Shown here one piece after another: positions 31,708 to 46,478 of a stretch of DNA of 64,000 nucleotides. The stretch covers positions 1 through 64,000 of the forward strand of contig CP060755.1 in NCBI GenBank assembly GCA_023205875.1. Direction: 5' to 3'. Made by a program: the position numbers and the translations under genes. Source of the DNA: Chloropicon primus. Taxonomy: Eukaryota; Chlorophyta; Chloropicophyceae; Chloropicales; Chloropicaceae. Within the stretch, counting starts at the first letter, position 1; every line of letters begins with the position of its first letter. The notes under the pieces were generated by a model, which saw only the letters and a program-made list of their open reading frames with translations, was not told where the DNA came from and made no database searches.

Positions 31708-32377
31708 CGCTGCGGACGTCCTGCTTTCGCTCTGCGTAAGGAAGGAAGAAACAAAGGAAGGAAGAAACAAAGGAAGGAAAGAGGTCTTTTCTTTTTTGTT
31801 TTTTCTTTTTTGTTTTTTGTTTTTTGTTTTTGTTTTTGTTTTTGTTTCCGGGTCAGCCCCCCTCCACGTATGCTTCCTTTCTCGTCATGCCTGTCCTCTT
31901 CGTCCTCGTGTGTTGGTCTGTGTCGAGTTCTAGTTCTCTGTCCCGCCCGTTCGTTTTGTGTGTTCCCGCGCGAGAAGTAACGCCCGTGCCGTCCCTCTCC
32001 GTTCTCCTGACCTCCCCCCCGTGATCTCCGCCTCTTTCGCGCTTCTCACCACGAACAGAACCTCGGAGCGGAGTACCACCAAATTCAACACTAGTACTCT
32101 GACATTTCACTTGTAACCCCCCACACGTTGATCTCGAGGATTAAACCTTCAAACCCTACAATATTGTAACGCGCGAACCAGGGGAATCACGGCGGAGGGG
32201 AACGAACAACATAGAGCCAGGGAGAGAGAGAGCACACGAGGGAGGGAGGGACACGACTGACACGACTGACACGACTGACACCATACACGCCAACACCACC
32301 GACACCATACACGCTTCTTTGGATTCATTGCTCCGCCCGCCTCTTCTCGCTGGAGCTGGAGGTGGACCTTGGAGAGG
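31708..32377. other. PDE/PKS divergent region with tandem repeats
   Basis: 670 bp. A poly-T/G tract with TTTTTG units (31788-31848) lies close to the PDE. Close to the PKS are three tandem copies of the 9-mer GACACGACT (32250-32276), then GACACCATACACGC at 32277-32290 and again at 32301-32314. No gene seen. Confidence 0.6.
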
Positions 32378-35300
32378 ATGAGGGCTTTGGGGGAGGGCCA
32401 TGAGGAGGGCCATGAGGAACGGCCGAGGGGGAGGGTCCAACCGCTGAGGGGCTTGACTTCCCGTCAACCGGCTCCCGGGGGTCCCACGACTCTGGCCTCC
32501 GTCGCGTGGCGGGGGCCTTGGACGGAGTCGTCGTCGCCTTGGACGGAGGCCGCCACCACAGCGACGGGGGACGCCATCACGAAGCGGCCGTTCAACAGGT
32601 TCTCGCGCGGCGTTCTGGAGGAGCCGAGGTGCCAAGCGATTTACGGGGGGTTCCTGGAGGGCCTGGAGGAGTTCGACAACGAGGCGTTCCGGATGAGCAA
32701 CTTGGAAAGCCTGACGACCGACGTGCAGCAGAGGCTCCTGCTGGAGGTGACCGCGGAGTGCGTGTCCGCGGCGGCGGCGACGAGCGCGGCACAGAGCACG
32801 GACGTCGCCGTCCACGTCGGAATCCTCGCCATGGAGTACGCCCTGAGCCTGGCGTTCGACTGGGGGAGTCCCCACGAGGTCTACTCCGTCACGGGCGCCG
32901 GCCTGAGCGTGGCCTCCGGAAGAATCTCCTTCGTGTTCGGGTTCACGGGCCCCGCCCTGACGGTGGACACGGCGTGCTCGTCCTCCCTGGTGGCTCTGCA
33001 CCTGGCGCACCGGCGCGCCAGGGAGGCCCAGTCGTCGTCGTCGTCCCTGGCGTGCGGGTCCAACGCCCTGGTGTCCAGGAGAACTTTCGAGGTCATCCAC
33101 CGGGCGGGGATGCTGGCCCCGGACGGGAGGTGCAAGACCCTCGACGCCTCGGCGAACGGGTACACGAGGGCGGAGGCCGTCCAGGCCGTCCTCCTGTCCA
33201 GCAACGGGGACGACGGCGGCGCCGCGACGGCGGTCGTCCTCGCCGGGGGAGCGGTGAACCAGGACGGGAGGTCCGCCTCCCTGACGGCCCCGAGCGGTCC
33301 CGCGCAGCAGGAGATGCTCCGCCTGGCCCTGGAGGACTCCCGCCTCGACGCGGGATTCGATGTGGAGGGGATCCAGATGCACGGCACGGGGTCCAGGCTC
33401 GGGGATCCCATCGAGGTCACCGCGATCGAGCAGAACTTCGCTTTCCGACGAAATCACCCGCTCTTTCTCTCGGCCTCCAAGTGCCTGGTGGGCCACGGGG
33501 AAGCGGCCGCGGGGCTCAACGGCGTCATCCAGGCCGTTGGAGTCGCGACCGGGGCCTCCGCAGCACCTTTCATTCACCTCAGGACGCTGAATCCGTACCT
33601 GCACAACGCGTTTGAGAGCGAGAACGGGGTGTCCTTCGTGGCGGCGAGGCAACCCATTCCCATTCCCTGCAGCACCACCGCGGAGGAGGGAGCAGGTGCC
33701 CACGGCGTCAGCGCATTCGCCTTTCAGGGCACGAATGCCCACGTCGTGCTCAGGCCCGTGGCGACTCGGGGATCCGGCACCACTGCTAGAAAGTCCCTGG
33801 ACAGACTGTGGAGGCGCAAGTTCTTCTGGTACGCCCACCCCAACCACCCGCTCCTCGGCAGCTTTGCGACGACTCTGAACATCCACAACGATCTGGTGGC
33901 GGAGGCCCGGGTGGACCTCGAGAGCCCAAGCCTGTCGTACCTGCATCAGTTCAAGCTGGGAGGCCGTTCGATTCTCGGCGTCTCCGTGTACCTCGACGCG
34001 GTGGGCTCCCTGGCATCTTCCATGCTGGGGGACGCCGACGCCAGCGGTCCGGCCAGGCAGTTTGCGATGTCCGAGATCGTGCTCGGGCCTCCCCGTAGGC
34101 TCGAAAGCGCCGCTCTCGTGAACCAGTTCATCTGCAGGCTCGACCCCAATTCCGGAGGCATCGCTTGCCGCGACTTGGGCGCCGAGGAGGAGGAAAGCTT
34201 GCTCGTGAGGAGGGAATTCGCCTGCATCGTCGCCGCGGCTCGTCCACCCAGCGCCGAGGAGGGAGGAACTGTCGGCAGCAGCGCTCCCTCGGGTCCATCA
34301 CTGGGCTCGCTGCTGAGACCCAGATCCCCGAGCATCACCGCGGGACCCGGGGAGGACCTGGCGAGGGAGTCCCACGTCGACCGGGACGTGCTCGCCTCGG
34401 TGTCCGGATTGGACTCGACCCACGTCCGGGACGACGATGTTTCCCTCGACGTGCTCAAGGCAGAGTGCGGCATGAGTTCCGTTTACGCTCACTTTGCCGG
34501 GGAGGTGGGATCCGGAAATCCGTGGGACCACGTGCCCTCCCTCCTGACCTCTCTGTGCTATCCGGCATCGATCGAGTGCTTCATCGTCGGACACGGGGTG
34601 AAGAGGCGGGGGCAAGAGGTCACGGTGGGCTGCACGGGCACGGAGCACGAGTCCCTGGAGAGTCCCCTCGGCAGCAGCTGCAGTTGGTTCGACGGGCGGG
34701 GCGCGGAGGAGGCCATGAGGACTCGCGGCGTTCATTGGTCTCCAATGATTTTCAGGTCGAAGCTCGTCAAGCCGATCGACGAGCTCGGGGCCAAGATCGG
34801 GTCTGCAGGAGGAAACGCGGAGAGGACCACAAAATCAAGGGAGGACTACGAGATCGTTGTGCAGAAGATCATCGAGGAGCTCGTAGGGGAATCCGTCGGA
34901 CTGGAAGAGTCCCTTCACGAGCACGCTGTTGATTCCTTCACCGCGGAGGAGGTCGCGACCCTGATCAGCCGGGAGGTTGGCTTGACAGTGACCGCGACGT
35001 TTGTGTTCGACTATCCGAACGTCAAACTGATGGCGGCACACATCCACGGAAAGCTCGGGGGAGGTGAGAAGAAGAAGAGAACTCCGGGGCTTGGGCGCTC
35101 TTTGGGAACGAGGGCAGGAGGGTCCCGGGGGAGCCGCAGATGCCCTGGTGTCGTGGCGATCCAGAGCGTGAGCGCGATGCTCCCGCACGGAAGCGGGGGT
35201 GCAAGCCACCAGCGGGATTGCATCAGCACCATCCCCCTGGCGAGGTGGGACCTGAACTTTGATTCGGTGGGAGCAGAGACTCTGCCGAGGTTCGGCGGAT

Positions 35301-38300
35301 TCATCGAGCTCCACAAGTGGTTCGACAACGCGTTGTTCAACACTTCTGTGGCCGAGAGCGAGCACATCGACTGCCGCCAGTGCTCCCTGCTGACGTGCTC
35401 GTTCGAGGCATTGATGCAGAGCGGGGGGGTTGACGAGGCCACGGGGGTCTTCGTGGGCATCCAGGCCATGCCAGCAGACAATCCCTTCGACTGCAGGCTC
35501 GGAATGACTGGCTACCATGGAACAGGCACGTCCATGAGCGTGGCCTGCGGAAGAATCTCGTACGTGTTTGGGTTCAAAGGGCCGTCTCTATGCATCGATA
35601 CCGCGTGCTCGTCCTCCCTGCTTGCTTTGCACCTGGGCAGGGAGAGACTGGACGCCCCCTCGTGCACAATTCAGCAGGCCCTCTCCTGCGGCGCGCACTG
35701 CTACCAATCTGACAAGGGGTTCCAAGTCATGATGGGTGCGGGGATGCTGGCCCCGGACGGGAGGTGCAAGACCCTCGACGCCTCGGCGAACGGGTACACG
35801 AGGGCGGAGGCCGTCCAGGCCGCCCTCCTGTCCAGGGAACCCGCCTCGTCTAGCAATGGCATTATGGCTGTCCTTGGCGGAGCGGTGAACCAGGACGGGA
35901 GGTCCGCCTCCCTGACGGCCCCGAGCGGTCCCGCCCAGCAGGAGATGCTCCACCTGGCCCTGGAAGACTCCCGCCTCGACGCCTTTGACGTGGAGGGCAT
36001 CCAGATGCACGGCACGGGGACCTTGCTGGGCGATCCCATCGAAATCGGTGCCCTCAGCAGTATCTTTGATGATTACTCTGGAACGACATCCGGCGGGGTC
36101 TTGCTCCTTTCTGGCATCAAGTGCACCGCAGGCCATGCGGAAGCGGCCGCGGGGCTCAACGGCGTCATCCAGGCCGTTGGAGTCGCGACCGGGGCCTCCG
36201 CAGCACCTTTCATTCACCTCAGGACGCTGAATCCGTACCTGCACAACGCGTTTGAGAGCGAGAACGGGGTGTCCTTCGTGGCGGCGAGGCAACCCATTCC
36301 CATTCCCTGCAGCACCACCGCGGAGGAGGGAGCAGGTGCCCACGGCGTCAGCGCATTCGCCTTTCAGGGCACGAATGCCCACGTCGTGCTCAGGCCCGTG
36401 GCGACTCGGGGATCCGGCACCACTGCTAGAAAGTCCCTGGACAGACTGTGGAGGCGCAAGTTCTTCTGGTACGCCCACCCCAACCACCCGCTCCTCGGCA
36501 GCTTTGCGACGACTCTGAACATCCACAACGATCTGGTGGCGGAGGCCCGGGTGGACCTCGAGAGCCCAAGCCTGTCGTACCTGCATCAGTTCAAGCTGGG
36601 AGGCCGTTCGATTCTCGGCGTCTCCGTGTACCTCGACGCGGTGGGCTCCCTGGCATCTTCCATGCTGGGGGACGCCGACGCCAGCGGTCCGGCCAGGCAG
36701 TTTGCGATGTCCAAGATTATTCTGGGCGAGCCCAAACTGCTGATGGATCAGTGGGAGGCGAGTTCTTCGAAAAGGACGAAGCAGACATCCTTCCTGAGAT
36801 GCGAGATCCACACGCTGCTCGGGCTTGCCAATTCCGGGTTCATCGAGTCGACCTCCAGTCCCACTGCAAGCTTTGCTGGCCACATCGAAAAGTCGCACAG
36901 CAGAATGTGGAATCATCACAACAAGAATCTTGAGGTCGGCCGAGAGATCTCCTCGTGGGGAGAACAAGCTGGAGGTGCGAGAGATCGGGAGCATCCTTCC
37001 ACGTGCGCCTCCGTCTACCTTCCAGGAATCGAGAACGGCGTGTCGGAATACGCCTTGCACCCTCTGATCTTTGAGAACACCACCTTGGCCTCTTCCGCGA
37101 CGGGGGAGAAGGGCATGCTTTTCCCCGTCCAGATGGCCCACGTCTCCTTGTCTGCGCCCCTGAAGCGGATCACCTGCCAGTCTGCGGAGATTCTCAACAC
37201 TTTGGGCGGAGTCAGCGTCTCGATGCAAAATACCGCCAGAATCACTGTCGAGGACATTGTGTACATGAAGCGCAGGGAGGAGGACATCCATGCGGGCCTC
37301 GCTCCCGCCAGCGCCGAGACGGTTGCGGCGAAGACGAGGCTAACTCCAGCAAGCGACGAGGACTACAATGCGTACACTCCAGAGGACTTCAGCGATTGCC
37401 AGAGCAGTTTCCAAGACATGTGCGAGCTGGTGAGCTCCGCCACAGTCGCGAGGGGCCACCACCCATTGAACGCACCAGGTTTTGCGGGCGGCGCAGATGT
37501 GGACATTGTGAAGCGACTCGTTTTCGAGATCACAGGTGAGGATGAGATTACGGACGACGAGCCGCTCATCGGAGCGGGTCTGGACTCCATCGCTTCCCTG
37601 GAGCTGCGGACGAAGCTTCAGGACATGCTGGGGGTCCAGCTGCCGGTCACCTTGCTGCACGACCATCCTTGCATCTCGTCCTTGAGGACTCTGGTGGAGA
37701 CCACGAGTCAGACCCTCAGCAGCCACGGGGGGGACGGGCAGAGCAGCTTGAGCGTGCAGAGCGAGCACTTCCAGGCTGCGCTCTACTTGCCGCTCCTCTT
37801 CAAGACTGCTTTCGTTGCTTCGTGCACGAGGAAGGAAGACCATTTCCTTCCGTTCTGGTATCCAGCGTTGGTGTACTTTGTGGCCGTATTCGTTCCCATC
37901 TTTTGGGTCTTTGAAAAGCTGCAACACTACGTGCTCTATGTCCTGGACGGCAAGTACAGAGAGTACCAGGTGAACCTGCTTCCGATCGACGGCGCGGAGG
38001 AGGACGAGGATGCAGCGAAGGAGAAGATAGTCCCGCTCACTCAGGATGATGCCTCTGTTTCCCACATCTACGTCTCGGCCTGCCTGGAGTTCGATGACAT
38101 TGTTCCAGAGGTGAACCTGTGCAACAGTCTCCAGATTGCCTTGAGCCACTTCCCGTCCTTGGCGGGAAACCTCGTGAGGAGTGGCCGGAACATGTACCTC
38201 AAGTACGGGGGCAAATCAGATTTTGTGAGGGTCCTGGCTCACGAGTACAAGAGGAGAAAGGACATGCACTTCAAGTCCGGAATGATACAGGAGCCCGCTG

Positions 38301-39376
38301 CAAGGGCTACGCCAGGTTGGCTGCAGACTCTGAACACCATGAACATGCAGGTGCTGTACGCGTACCGGTGCGCAAAGCCCCGTGGCCACCCCTGTATGAA
38401 GATTTACATTCACCAGAACTTGAGGGATGAGAACCCGAAAACTCTGGTCACGGTGAGATGGAACCATGCTGTGGCCGACGGCAGCACGATCCACAAGTTC
38501 CTTGGGGCGTGGGCCATGGCAGACAAAGGGAGGAGAATCCTGAGCACGCACGCGGGGCCCTCAGAGTCCCTCTCGGATCGCCAGCACGCACTGCTCGCGC
38601 GCATCCTGATGGGAGAGTCACAGTCCAGTCTCTACTTTCCTTGCCGCAGCTTCTGGTCCCCTCCATACAACTCGGTCCTGATCAGATTCCCCGAGGAGCA
38701 AATCCGCGGCCACCAGAGCAAGCTTTGCGACACGAGGATCAGTCCGATCGACGTCGTGTCGAGCCTCTTGTGGCTGGCCATGTCGAGCACTTGCTACCCC
38801 GATGACGAGCAGGTGGAGGACGACAAGTACTTTGAGTTTGCGTCGTGGCACCCGAAGCTCTCCTTCCTCGTGGACCTGAGGAATCACTTGCCCGAGTTGC
38901 AGTGCTTCACGGGAAATTTGGTGCGCTGCACGGAGCCATTCTGCCCCATGAAGGACCCCCTGTCCGATCTCAAGATGATCTTGGGAGCGGACATCAGCTC
39001 AACCATGCGTCAAGTTGGCGAGCAAAGGAAGAGCCTGCACTTCTCGATGGATTACATAGAAGAGTTCATGCGGCTTCCGGGCGTGCCCCTTTGCTTGCAG
39101 AAGCAGCAAGAGGAGTGGATGACGACGAGCGCGAATGGCCCTTGCCTCTTGGTCAATGACCTGACATCTTTCCGGGGGCCCTTCAACTTTGGAAGCTCCA
39201 GCGCCGAGGTATCAGCCGAGTCTTACTCCTCGGATTGGAGCCCCGGCGACTGCTCGTTGATGCAGAGACTGGAAGACGTGGATCTCACCCCGTTCAACAC
39301 GAACTCGTTCTGGTTTGCACATCTCAAGAACGACAGGAACGGCGACATTGTTTGTGCACTCACCACCTTTTCGTAA
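32378..39376 (+). CDS. Type I PKS-like protein fused to BAHD-like acyltransferase
   Basis: 2332 residues in one exon. Domains in order: KS1 (about 40-450; active Cys200 in DTACSSS, His335 in HGTG, His373 in GHGEAAAG); DH1-like double hot-dog (about 480-800, starting HPLLGS); ACP1 (about 825-895, Ser853 in AVDSF). Then KS2 (about 923-1330; Cys1077, His1211, His1253); DH2-like (about 1365-1650); ACP2 (about 1705-1775, Ser1737 in GLDSIAS). A hydrophobic segment (about 1824-1848) is followed by a BAHD-like domain (to the end) with HAVAD (His2030-Asp2034) and NFGSS where BAHD enzymes have DFGWG. I see no AT, KR, ER or thioesterase domain. The pattern suggests acyl loading in trans and release by acyl transfer; the product is unknown. 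574 bp are identical between the two modules. The first ATG is at 32378; the KS1 N-terminus is divergent. Confidence 0.85.
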   Translation: MRALGEGHEEGHEERPRGRVQPLRGLTSRQPAPGGPTTLASVAWRGPWTESSSPWTEAATTATGDAITKRPFNRFSRGVLEEPRCQAIYGGFLEGLEEFDNEAFRMSNLESLTTDVQQRLLLEVTAECVSAAAATSAAQSTDVAVHVGILAMEYALSLAFDWGSPHEVYSVTGAGLSVASGRISFVFGFTGPALTVDTACSSSLVALHLAHRRAREAQSSSSSLACGSNALVSRRTFEVIHRAGMLAPDGRCKTLDASANGYTRAEAVQAVLLSSNGDDGGAATAVVLAGGAVNQDGRSASLTAPSGPAQQEMLRLALEDSRLDAGFDVEGIQMHGTGSRLGDPIEVTAIEQNFAFRRNHPLFLSASKCLVGHGEAAAGLNGVIQAVGVATGASAAPFIHLRTLNPYLHNAFESENGVSFVAARQPIPIPCSTTAEEGAGAHGVSAFAFQGTNAHVVLRPVATRGSGTTARKSLDRLWRRKFFWYAHPNHPLLGSFATTLNIHNDLVAEARVDLESPSLSYLHQFKLGGRSILGVSVYLDAVGSLASSMLGDADASGPARQFAMSEIVLGPPRRLESAALVNQFICRLDPNSGGIACRDLGAEEEESLLVRREFACIVAAARPPSAEEGGTVGSSAPSGPSLGSLLRPRSPSITAGPGEDLARESHVDRDVLASVSGLDSTHVRDDDVSLDVLKAECGMSSVYAHFAGEVGSGNPWDHVPSLLTSLCYPASIECFIVGHGVKRRGQEVTVGCTGTEHESLESPLGSSCSWFDGRGAEEAMRTRGVHWSPMIFRSKLVKPIDELGAKIGSAGGNAERTTKSREDYEIVVQKIIEELVGESVGLEESLHEHAVDSFTAEEVATLISREVGLTVTATFVFDYPNVKLMAAHIHGKLGGGEKKKRTPGLGRSLGTRAGGSRGSRRCPGVVAIQSVSAMLPHGSGGASHQRDCISTIPLARWDLNFDSVGAETLPRFGGFIELHKWFDNALFNTSVAESEHIDCRQCSLLTCSFEALMQSGGVDEATGVFVGIQAMPADNPFDCRLGMTGYHGTGTSMSVACGRISYVFGFKGPSLCIDTACSSSLLALHLGRERLDAPSCTIQQALSCGAHCYQSDKGFQVMMGAGMLAPDGRCKTLDASANGYTRAEAVQAALLSREPASSSNGIMAVLGGAVNQDGRSASLTAPSGPAQQEMLHLALEDSRLDAFDVEGIQMHGTGTLLGDPIEIGALSSIFDDYSGTTSGGVLLLSGIKCTAGHAEAAAGLNGVIQAVGVATGASAAPFIHLRTLNPYLHNAFESENGVSFVAARQPIPIPCSTTAEEGAGAHGVSAFAFQGTNAHVVLRPVATRGSGTTARKSLDRLWRRKFFWYAHPNHPLLGSFATTLNIHNDLVAEARVDLESPSLSYLHQFKLGGRSILGVSVYLDAVGSLASSMLGDADASGPARQFAMSKIILGEPKLLMDQWEASSSKRTKQTSFLRCEIHTLLGLANSGFIESTSSPTASFAGHIEKSHSRMWNHHNKNLEVGREISSWGEQAGGARDREHPSTCASVYLPGIENGVSEYALHPLIFENTTLASSATGEKGMLFPVQMAHVSLSAPLKRITCQSAEILNTLGGVSVSMQNTARITVEDIVYMKRREEDIHAGLAPASAETVAAKTRLTPASDEDYNAYTPEDFSDCQSSFQDMCELVSSATVARGHHPLNAPGFAGGADVDIVKRLVFEITGEDEITDDEPLIGAGLDSIASLELRTKLQDMLGVQLPVTLLHDHPCISSLRTLVETTSQTLSSHGGDGQSSLSVQSEHFQAALYLPLLFKTAFVASCTRKEDHFLPFWYPALVYFVAVFVPIFWVFEKLQHYVLYVLDGKYREYQVNLLPIDGAEEDEDAAKEKIVPLTQDDASVSHIYVSACLEFDDIVPEVNLCNSLQIALSHFPSLAGNLVRSGRNMYLKYGGKSDFVRVLAHEYKRRKDMHFKSGMIQEPAARATPGWLQTLNTMNMQVLYAYRCAKPRGHPCMKIYIHQNLRDENPKTLVTVRWNHAVADGSTIHKFLGAWAMADKGRRILSTHAGPSESLSDRQHALLARILMGESQSSLYFPCRSFWSPPYNSVLIRFPEEQIRGHQSKLCDTRISPIDVVSSLLWLAMSSTCYPDDEQVEDDKYFEFASWHPKLSFLVDLRNHLPELQCFTGNLVRCTEPFCPMKDPLSDLKMILGADISSTMRQVGEQRKSLHFSMDYIEEFMRLPGVPLCLQKQQEEWMTTSANGPCLLVNDLTSFRGPFNFGSSSAEVSAESYSSDWSPGDCSLMQRLEDVDLTPFNTNSFWFAHLKNDRNGDIVCALTTFS
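33499..34072 (+). repeat. 574-bp perfect intragenic direct repeat, copy 1
   Basis: Identical, base for base, to 36139-36712 (offset 2640). It covers the end of KS1 after its last catalytic His and the N-terminal part of DH1. Flanking sequence on both sides is clearly diverged between the modules. Confidence 0.95.
36139..36712 (+). repeat. 574-bp perfect intragenic direct repeat, copy 2
   Basis: Second copy of 33499-34072, in the same position in module 2. Two further high-identity tracts connect the modules at a different offset: 33104-33201 with 35738-35835 (one mismatch) and about 33248-33352 with 35879-35983 (about three mismatches). Confidence 0.95.
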
Positions 39377-44517: not shown

Positions 44518-46478
44518 TCACAGGGCATCAAAAATGTCGAGGGCAATGGAGTGGCTCTGACCAGCCCCGAGGACCAGGACGACGGTGTCTTCTCCGGTGG
44601 TTGATCCAACCTCCGCCACCACCTCAGCGACCACCTCCTTTGCGTCATGGATGTACCTGGCGTTCAGGCCGATTTCAGCCGCTAGATCCTCCGCTATCGC
44701 TTGCTTGACCTTTGGACTGATCCAGGTTTTGATGGGTTCGAAAACCTGGCTCACCACCACATTCTCACCCCCCTCCGCGAGAGCCTCAACAAACTCGCCA
44801 AAAAAGTAAGCCAGCCTGCTCAGTGTGTGGGGCTCGAAGACCACGACCAGCTTCCTCCCGTCGTACCTCCCCCGCACCCCTTCGAGGGTCGCTTGAACTT
44901 CCGTGGGGTGGTGAGCGTAATCAGAAACCACGACGCACTTCCCACCGTCGGACCCTTCTTTCTCTCCGATGACCTGGCACCTCCTTTCCACGCCCTGAAA
45001 CTCCGCCAGCACCTCGGCACTGCTCGCGACTGATCTCTCCAGCTCCTCGGCACTCGTCTCCGAAGTGCCCCTCCCCTGGACGAGGGCCGCCAAAGCAATC
45101 GCGCCCAGGGCGTTCAGAACGTTGTGCGTGCCCGTCACGGGGATCGTCAGCCTCGTGCCCAGGGGCTTGCCCTTGTACTCCACCCGAAAGGAGCACTCCC
45201 CTCCTTCCACCTTCAGGTCGGTGGCTCTCCAATCGTTTCCCTCCTGCAGGCCATACGTTTGGATCGTCCCGTTGCCGTTGCCGGAAGGAGAAGACGACGA
45301 AGAAGAAGAAGAAGAAGAAGAGATCTCCGTCCTTTTCTCCAGGAGAATCCTGCACCCCGGGTCGTCCCCACACATCACCGTGGCCCCGTCCTCGGAAACG
45401 TTCTCCAAAAATTCCTCAAAGGCCGCGAAGACTTCGTCCTCGGACTCGTAAATGTCCAGGTGGTCGAGCTCCACGTTCGTCACGATGGCGTACTTTGAAT
45501 GAAGATCGAGGAAAGCCCTGTCGTACTCGTCCGCCTCCAGCACGAAGAGGTTGCTGGTCCCCACCATGCTGCCCCCATTCCAGCTCTTCACGTCCCCCCC
45601 GACGATTGCAGTGATGCCGTCCTCCCGCTCCAAGTTCTCCAAGACTAGAGCGACCATGGTAGCAGTCGTGGTCTTCCCGTGAGTCCCCGCAACGGAGACC
45701 AGGTTGTACCCACTGGTGACCCTTCCCAGCCAGGCTCCTCGCTTGTACAGCGGTATGTTGTACTTGAGTGCGCACCTCACTTCAACGTTGTCAGCGCTCA
45801 CCGCGCTGGAAACGACCATGGCGTCGGGCAGGCAGTTAACTCCCGCCACCTCCCGCTCCAAGACGTTGCCCTCGTCGTGCCCCACGTCCACGAGGGCCCC
45901 CTCCCCCCTGAGGTCCTCGAGTTTGCTACTCTCCCGGATGTCGCTCCCCGTCACGAGCCAGCCCCTCGCCATGGCCAACTTTGCGAGGTTGGACAAGCCA
46001 GATCCCCCAATGCCCACGAAGTGTACCTGGACAAGAGAGAGAAAGAGAGAGAGAGAGAGAGGGCGTCAGTGCTTCGCTCCGAGTCGCCGCGGCGGCGCGT
46101 GACCCACTTACCCTCCGCCTGCTCTTGGCCGTCCTGCCCGACTTAAGCCCGCCCACGAAACGAAAGTGGGTGGTCCTGCGAGGAGAAGAAGAAGAAAAAA
46201 AAGGTACAAGAAGAGTCAGAAACCAATGATCGAGAGGAGGGCGCGCCGCGCGACGACGATTCCCGCCCTTACCCATCCAGCCGCTCCTCCTTGGTCAGGT
46301 AGTCGTCCCACTTCTCGCCCTCGTTGCCGCTTGCCCTCGCCCTGCACACTCCAGCCTCCTCCCTGGTGTGAGAGGGAAAGGCTCCTCCTGTCCTCTCCCT
46401 GGTGTGTCTCACCGCGGTCGTCGTGGCCACCGCTGGCGAGGCCGCGCACCTTTGCGCGACCCTCCCCTGCGTGATCAT
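44518..46478 (-). CDS. murC: MurC, UDP-N-acetylmuramate--L-alanine ligase, three exons
   Basis: Exons 46478-46273, 46175-46112 and 46026-44518 give 592 residues. The introns are 97 and 85 bp; phases 2 and 0 agree on both sides of each junction. MurC adds L-Ala to UDP-MurNAc in peptidoglycan synthesis. Motifs: VHFVGIGGSGLSNLAKLA (UDP-binding start), VAGTHGKTTTATM (ATP loop), VLEADEYDRAFL, DYAHHPTEVQATL and FEPHTLSRL. Exon 1 gives an Arg/Ala/Thr-rich leader (MITQGRVAQRCAASPAVATT), consistent with plastid import. Intron 2 ends in a long (CT)n tract. The start is uncertain; the frame is open to about 46691. MurC in a eukaryote points to plastid peptidoglycan, known in mosses, charophytes, glaucophytes and some prasinophytes. 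Confidence 0.92.

Follow-up and report, generated by a model that had tools for sequence, protein, structure and literature searches.

The first 64,000 nucleotides of contig CP060755.1 from the green alga Chloropicon primus (GenBank assembly GCA_023205875.1), referred to here as the window, carry a single open frame of 2332 codons on the forward strand (32378-39376), which appears to encode a compact two-module type I polyketide synthase (PKS) ending in a BAHD-type acyltransferase domain. Pfam assigned two ketosynthases (KS), two carrier domains (acyl carrier proteins, ACP) and one PF02458 Transferase match to the 2332-residue protein. Its order is KS, a dehydratase (DH)-like region, ACP, KS, a second DH-like region, ACP, a hydrophobic helix and the BAHD-type domain, with the following features.

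32378..39376, + strand: whole open reading frame, 2332 residues, with database relatives P0002 and P0003
32570..33760, + strand: ketosynthase 1 (KS1), residues 65-461, by Pfam; Cys of DTACSSS, His of HGTG and His of KCLVGH present
33791..34837, + strand: post-KS region 1, putative remnant of a DH-like domain, in which Phe, Gly and Met replace the His, Pro and Asp of a DH
34853..35077, + strand: acyl carrier protein 1 (ACP1), by Pfam and motif; Ser853 in AVDSF
35204..36397, + strand: ketosynthase 2 (KS2), residues 943-1340, by Pfam; active-site Cys, His and His present
36431..37492, + strand: post-KS region 2, putative remnant of a DH-like domain, in which Phe, Gly and Glu replace the His, Pro and Asp of a DH
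37502..37702, + strand: acyl carrier protein 2 (ACP2), by Pfam and motif; Ser1737 in GLDSI
37844..37924, + strand: hydrophobic helix, residues 1823-1849, by hydropathy; helix 35-62 of the modelled piece
37949..39373, + strand: BAHD-type acyltransferase domain, residues 1858-2332, assigned from Pfam, a PDB profile search and the fold
38465..38482, + strand: HAVADG, the HxxxDG catalytic motif, residues 2030-2035; all 13 aligned sequences keep its His, Asp and Gly
39185..39199, + strand: NFGSS at the place of DFGWG, residues 2270-2274; only Phe invariant in the family
33499..34072, + strand: exact direct repeat of 574 bp, copy in module 1 (gene-conversion tract)
36139..36712, + strand: module 2 copy of the same repeat

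The motifs DTACSSS, HGTG and KxxxGH are all present in both KS1 and KS2. In a Pfam scan up to an E value of 1 the protein showed neither an acyltransferase (AT) nor a ketoreductase (KR) domain, and no loading domain was found by Pfam. Hydropathy values of at least 1.6 were reached, over the whole protein, only by windows starting at residues 1823-1831. An initial annotation, made from the letters alone, had described an AT-less, KR-less protein with KS, DH and ACP twice, a membrane segment and a BAHD-like release domain. The lack of AT and KR was borne out, as was the order of KS, ACP, helix and BAHD-like end; the DH label was not, because the catalytic residues are lost and the profile match is weak. 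That description is thus partly confirmed as an observation and partly supported in its interpretation.

An in-frame stop lies upstream at 32276, and there is no in-frame ATG between it and 32378. KS1 has no canonical start, and a missing upstream exon was considered; however, the N-terminus of P0002 before RPFNRF is diverged to the same degree, so that no missing exon is needed, although an intron is still possible. That one transcript covers 32378-39376 is probable from the open frame and from the relatives. The domain order is not due to chance, because it is kept in P0003 (2258 residues, 63% identical over the alignment).

PF02458 is the sole Pfam match of the C-terminal domain. Taken alone, the domain scored 25.7 bits, above the curated cut-off of 22.7, whereas the full protein scored 19.4 bits, under that cut-off; at an E value of 1 the family matched seven of the eight members of A6, our alignment and profile of the BAHD-type domain. 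The modelled domain has the two-lobed BAHD fold, and in a fold search with the modelled piece BAHD entries scored up to 18.6. The HxxxDG motif is present as HAVADG, and His2030, Asp2034 and Gly2035 are invariant in all 13 sequences aligned. A hallmark of plant BAHD members is DFGWG; here NFGSS stands in its place, as the initial annotation implied, and among the 13 sequences only the Phe is invariant. Pfam, the PDB profile search and the predicted fold thus agree with the earlier assignment of the domain as BAHD-like, and it is filed as such, not as a canonical plant BAHD enzyme, because DFGWG is absent. A PF02458 search of the genome returned one frame, on C5, and missed both BAHD-type PKS ends (that of the window gene and that of a giant PKS on C3, described below), so that the family search under-reports here. 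The BAHD-type frame at C5:89569-90957 (L024) is not fused to a PKS and is distant from the PKS-fused domain (A6 profile comparison probability 40.9, E value 2.8e-4). With the A6 profile, 58 pattern matches in the GTDB species genomes (bacteria and archaea only) and 13 in IMG/VR were obtained, none of which was confirmed.

Searches with the window's domain gave six database relatives, first P0002 and P0003 and then P0004-P0007 (query alignment A2, which includes the C3 sequence), and a search with the C3 end gave six more (P0008-P0013). Nine of these 12 have an ACP in the same protein, eight of them also a KS; P0005, P0006 and P0007 are short frames without ACP or KS. The C-terminal domain of the window protein is 66-75% identical to those of P0002, P0003 and P0004. 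Within the genome, searches with the window or the C3 BAHD-type domain matched C2 and C3 only. The giant C3 PKS frame (5185 residues) ends, by eye, in KR-ACP-KS-...-ACP-BAHD. In the C3 type the hydrophobic stretch lies elsewhere, shortly ahead of HxxxDG, and its position suggests that membrane contact has been kept in both the window-type and the C3-type lineages by different means.

The other PKS matches of the genome are on C3, C5 and C8. The C5 giant PKS, an open frame of 15753 residues (L045, C5:921500-931499, minus strand), has a last KS with DVACASS and with HCIGT for HGTGT, Cys and His being kept, and two hydrolase-like stretches follow this altered KS. The lowest C8 frame (L046, C8:670500-680499, minus strand) ends in an ACP and then two tandem hydrolase-like stretches. 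These hydrolase-like and ACP calls were made by eye, not by profile, and for C8 they cover the end of the lowest frame. Altered terminal KSs, some ahead of hydrolase-like domains, were reported from chlorophytes (Shelest et al. 2015, PMC4661987). Since the C5 giant PKS and the lowest C8 frame end in hydrolase-like stretches, the BAHD-type domain occupies what would be the release position.

For the KS part, the idea that the window gene arose from the terminal part of the giant C3 PKS was rejected. In a tree of 21 KSs of the genome and three from database relatives, with no bacterial reference and with long branches that limit deeper conclusions, the KSs of the window grouped with those of P0002 and P0003 (100/100), apart from the terminal C3 KS; the terminal domain is the only part common to the two genes. 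Two observations concern the giant PKSs themselves. At C8:680129-715616, eight DH matches of near-identical score recur every ~5.0 kb, a long array of near-identical PKS modules. At C3:1346069-1385739, KS matches of near-identical score recur, several ~8.7 kb apart, pointing to duplicated bimodules. PKS regions on chromosomes 3, 5 and 8 and 12 PKS family members were reported for the C. primus genome (PMC6731263), and the window gene may already be among those 12.

On the post-KS regions, PKS_DH_N gave a best E value of 0.057, under the cut-off, in three of six sequences. The His and Pro of HxxxGxxxxP and the Asp of the second hot dog are absent from all six regions of the window protein, P0002, P0003 and P0004; at the DH His place the P0002 region has Val, where the others have Phe, and throughout the six Gly stands for the Pro and Met or Glu for the Asp. 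Of 24 matches of the PS-DH profile in the genome, on C3, C5, C8 and C15, none lies on the window gene. A fold model of post-KS region 2 (354 residues) failed, with a pLDDT (predicted local distance difference test) of 29.6. On sequence grounds both regions are filed as weak DH-like remnants without catalytic residues. A dead DH was ruled out as a special mark of this gene, because among 11 internal regions of giant PKSs six keep His, Pro and Asp, one keeps His alone and four, all on C8, keep none, and the terminal C3 region likewise keeps none of the three.

The modules lack an AT, and stand-alone ATs occur elsewhere in the genome: both PF00698 candidates scored lie in short separate frames of 515 and 329 residues, each with GLSLGEY. 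These two putative malonyl transferases are located at C5:474241-475188 and C9:170864-171739. The KS matches in PDB include KSs of trans-AT and of cis-AT systems. In about 30 noniterative algal PKSs an integrated AT was almost always missing (Shelest et al. 2015, PMC4661987); the initial annotation had held that green-algal type I PKSs usually carry one, whereas in that source its absence is the rule for multimodular algal PKSs. As AT absence is usual in algal PKSs and the AT matches of this genome sit in separate frames, loading of the ACPs in trans is the default reading.

The reading we prefer, with a probability of roughly 0.65, is that the gene encodes a bimodular trans-AT type I PKS in which release falls to a BAHD-type acyltransferase, fused to the synthase and attached to a membrane. 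From the domain order and residues described above we infer a scheme for loading, number of extensions, release chemistry, acceptor and membrane attachment. A stand-alone malonyl transferase would load ACP1 and ACP2 in trans. KS1 would take the starter, assumed to be an acyl-coenzyme A (acyl-CoA) or the acyl-ACP of another synthase because Pfam shows no loading domain, and KS1 and KS2 would add one malonyl unit each, giving two extensions. The keto groups would stay, as there is no KR and no competent DH, unless a separate enzyme reduces them in trans. His2030 would then activate an alcohol or amine acceptor for attack on the ACP2 thioester, and the chain would leave as an ester or amide and not as the free acid, while helix 1823-1849 would hold this step at the membrane. 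The role we consider most likely is that the enzyme, attached to a membrane, passes the completed chain in cis from ACP2 onto an alcohol or amine. A BAHD-type end, where two other PKSs of the genome carry hydrolase-like ends, suggests that the product is transferred to a partner molecule, and perhaps at a membrane.

Among the other explanations, an unlikely one, though the best of them, is that the BAHD-type domain is a tailoring enzyme that transfers an acyl group from acyl-CoA to a hydroxyl, either on the chain still bound to its carrier or on some other molecule, the chain being released by spontaneous lactonisation or pyrone formation or by a thioesterase in trans. Characterised BAHD enzymes use acyl-CoA donors, an intact HxxxDG fits tailoring equally well, an unreduced diketo chain could cyclise unaided, and the hydrolase-like stretches seen at other PKS ends of the genome also favor this view. 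However, the domain shares a protein with an ACP in nine of the 12 relatives and is terminal in both BAHD-type PKS genes of the genome, and since the window protein has no KR no hydroxyl would be made in cis. Slightly less probable again is a non-catalytic partner that shapes the synthase or anchors it at a membrane, in the manner of CER2 and GL2, BAHD proteins that occur in complexes with the condensing enzymes KCS6 and CER6; the invariance of His2030, Asp2034 and Gly2035 would be needless for a scaffold. It is very improbable that the domain belongs with the condensation domains of nonribosomal peptide synthetases (NRPS), with PapA5 or with the WS/DGAT enzymes. The BAHD fold scores and the sole PF02458 match speak against this reading, no condensation domain is listed among its PDB profile matches up to an E value of 1, and all 13 sequences have Asn or Met in place of the first His of the NRPS motif HHxxxDG ([NM]HxxxDG). 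WS_DGAT gave no Pfam match up to an E value of 1 in the window's domain; a genome-wide WS/DGAT profile search found nothing, and was uninformative, as its controls gave no match either. Decay of a once larger synthase, of which the gene would be a fragment without a product, has just as little to commend it: the non-catalytic DH-like regions, the short, diverged KS1 N-terminus and the missing loading domain would fit, but the frame is open over 2332 codons, the KS and ACP catalytic residues are intact, and both the C-terminal domain and the order seen in P0003 are conserved.

How does the proposed fused release domain compare with known systems? Vinorine synthase, HCT and other plant BAHD acyltransferases are stand-alone enzymes with CoA donors and DFGWG, whereas the window domain is fused to a PKS and lacks that motif. 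In the plant KCS6-CER2 and CER6-GL2 complexes (PDB titles) a condensing enzyme is likewise physically paired with a BAHD protein, but the two are separate proteins, and the KCS6/CER6 partner is a fatty-acid elongase and not a modular PKS. The nearest functional parallel of the window domain is PapA5; in the HxxxD acyltransferase system compared, a chain from a PKS is esterified to an alcohol by a separate protein that is not of the BAHD family, whereas the window domain is part of its PKS and comes with a hydrophobic helix. The chlorophyte trans-AT type I PKSs (Shelest et al. 2015, PMC4661987) are alike in being multimodular green-algal enzymes with module duplications and no cis-AT. Many are far larger, the domain abbreviations of that paper include TE, Red and C and no BAHD, and neither "BAHD" nor "transferase" occurs in its main text. 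In a fungal PKS (Hang et al. 2017, cited in PMC6158276) release likewise depends on an acyltransferase within the PKS, but this C-terminal domain is of the carnitine acyltransferase family, not BAHD. Fungal crm isocyanide synthase-NRPS-like proteins (PMC5974471, PMC10153163) combine a carrier domain with PF02458 or "transferase" in one protein; they are NRPS-like, with an isocyanide synthase domain and no ketosynthase named. No PKS-BAHD fusion was found in the open-access literature searched, mostly titles and the starts of abstracts, with most subscription papers outside its scope. Relative to known terminal acyltransferase release, the novelty would lie in the domain family and in a probable membrane attachment.

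A broader proposal is that a new class of release domain, acting in cis within the PKS, arose in chloropicophyte algae, in which a membrane-attached BAHD-type domain moves the chain from the last ACP to an alcohol, amine or lipid in compact bimodular as well as giant synthases; on this we are evenly divided. The mode of release sets whether a PKS product is an acid, lactone, ester or amide. If the proposal is true, the fused domain, of a family known mostly from plant specialised metabolism, would be an added release class, and conjugated, perhaps membrane-bound polyketides would be predicted in a marine picoalga. A short two-module eukaryotic trans-AT PKS would also offer an alternative to the giant PKSs for study.

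The two modules share the 574-bp exact repeat listed above, and a separate exact repeat of 334 residues occurs over the same part within P0003. Within the tract the modules of one protein are 88% (window) and 100% (P0003) identical, compared with 68-70% between proteins. Ahead of the tract, the identity of KS1 with KS2 is 45% in each protein, compared with 69-76% from one protein to the other, and after it the values are 17% within the window protein and 42-43% between proteins. By these comparisons the modules have been homogenised by gene conversion, a concerted evolution also known from bacterial PKSs (PMC4256081), and the gene is a clean natural record of this process. The one-module P0002 has a front of KS1 type (67% identical to KS1 and 41% to KS2) and a rear of module 2 type (44% identical to module 2 and 18% to module 1). 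This is as a deletion between the two conversion tracts predicts, and its single module looks like the product of one. The repeat structure of P0002 and P0003 could instead reflect assembly collapse or duplication.

Among eight other frames of the window that were scanned, no further PKS-related family was found; six correspond to a PX/PXA protein, a phosphodiesterase, a kinesin, a Mur ligase, an ankyrin protein and Upf2, and two match nothing. Upstream of the PKS gene, short tandem copies of GACACGACT and a run rich in T and G were seen by eye (window 32250-32285 and 31780-31850). The Mur ligase, at 44521-46017 on the minus strand, is a complete three-domain one in a green alga.
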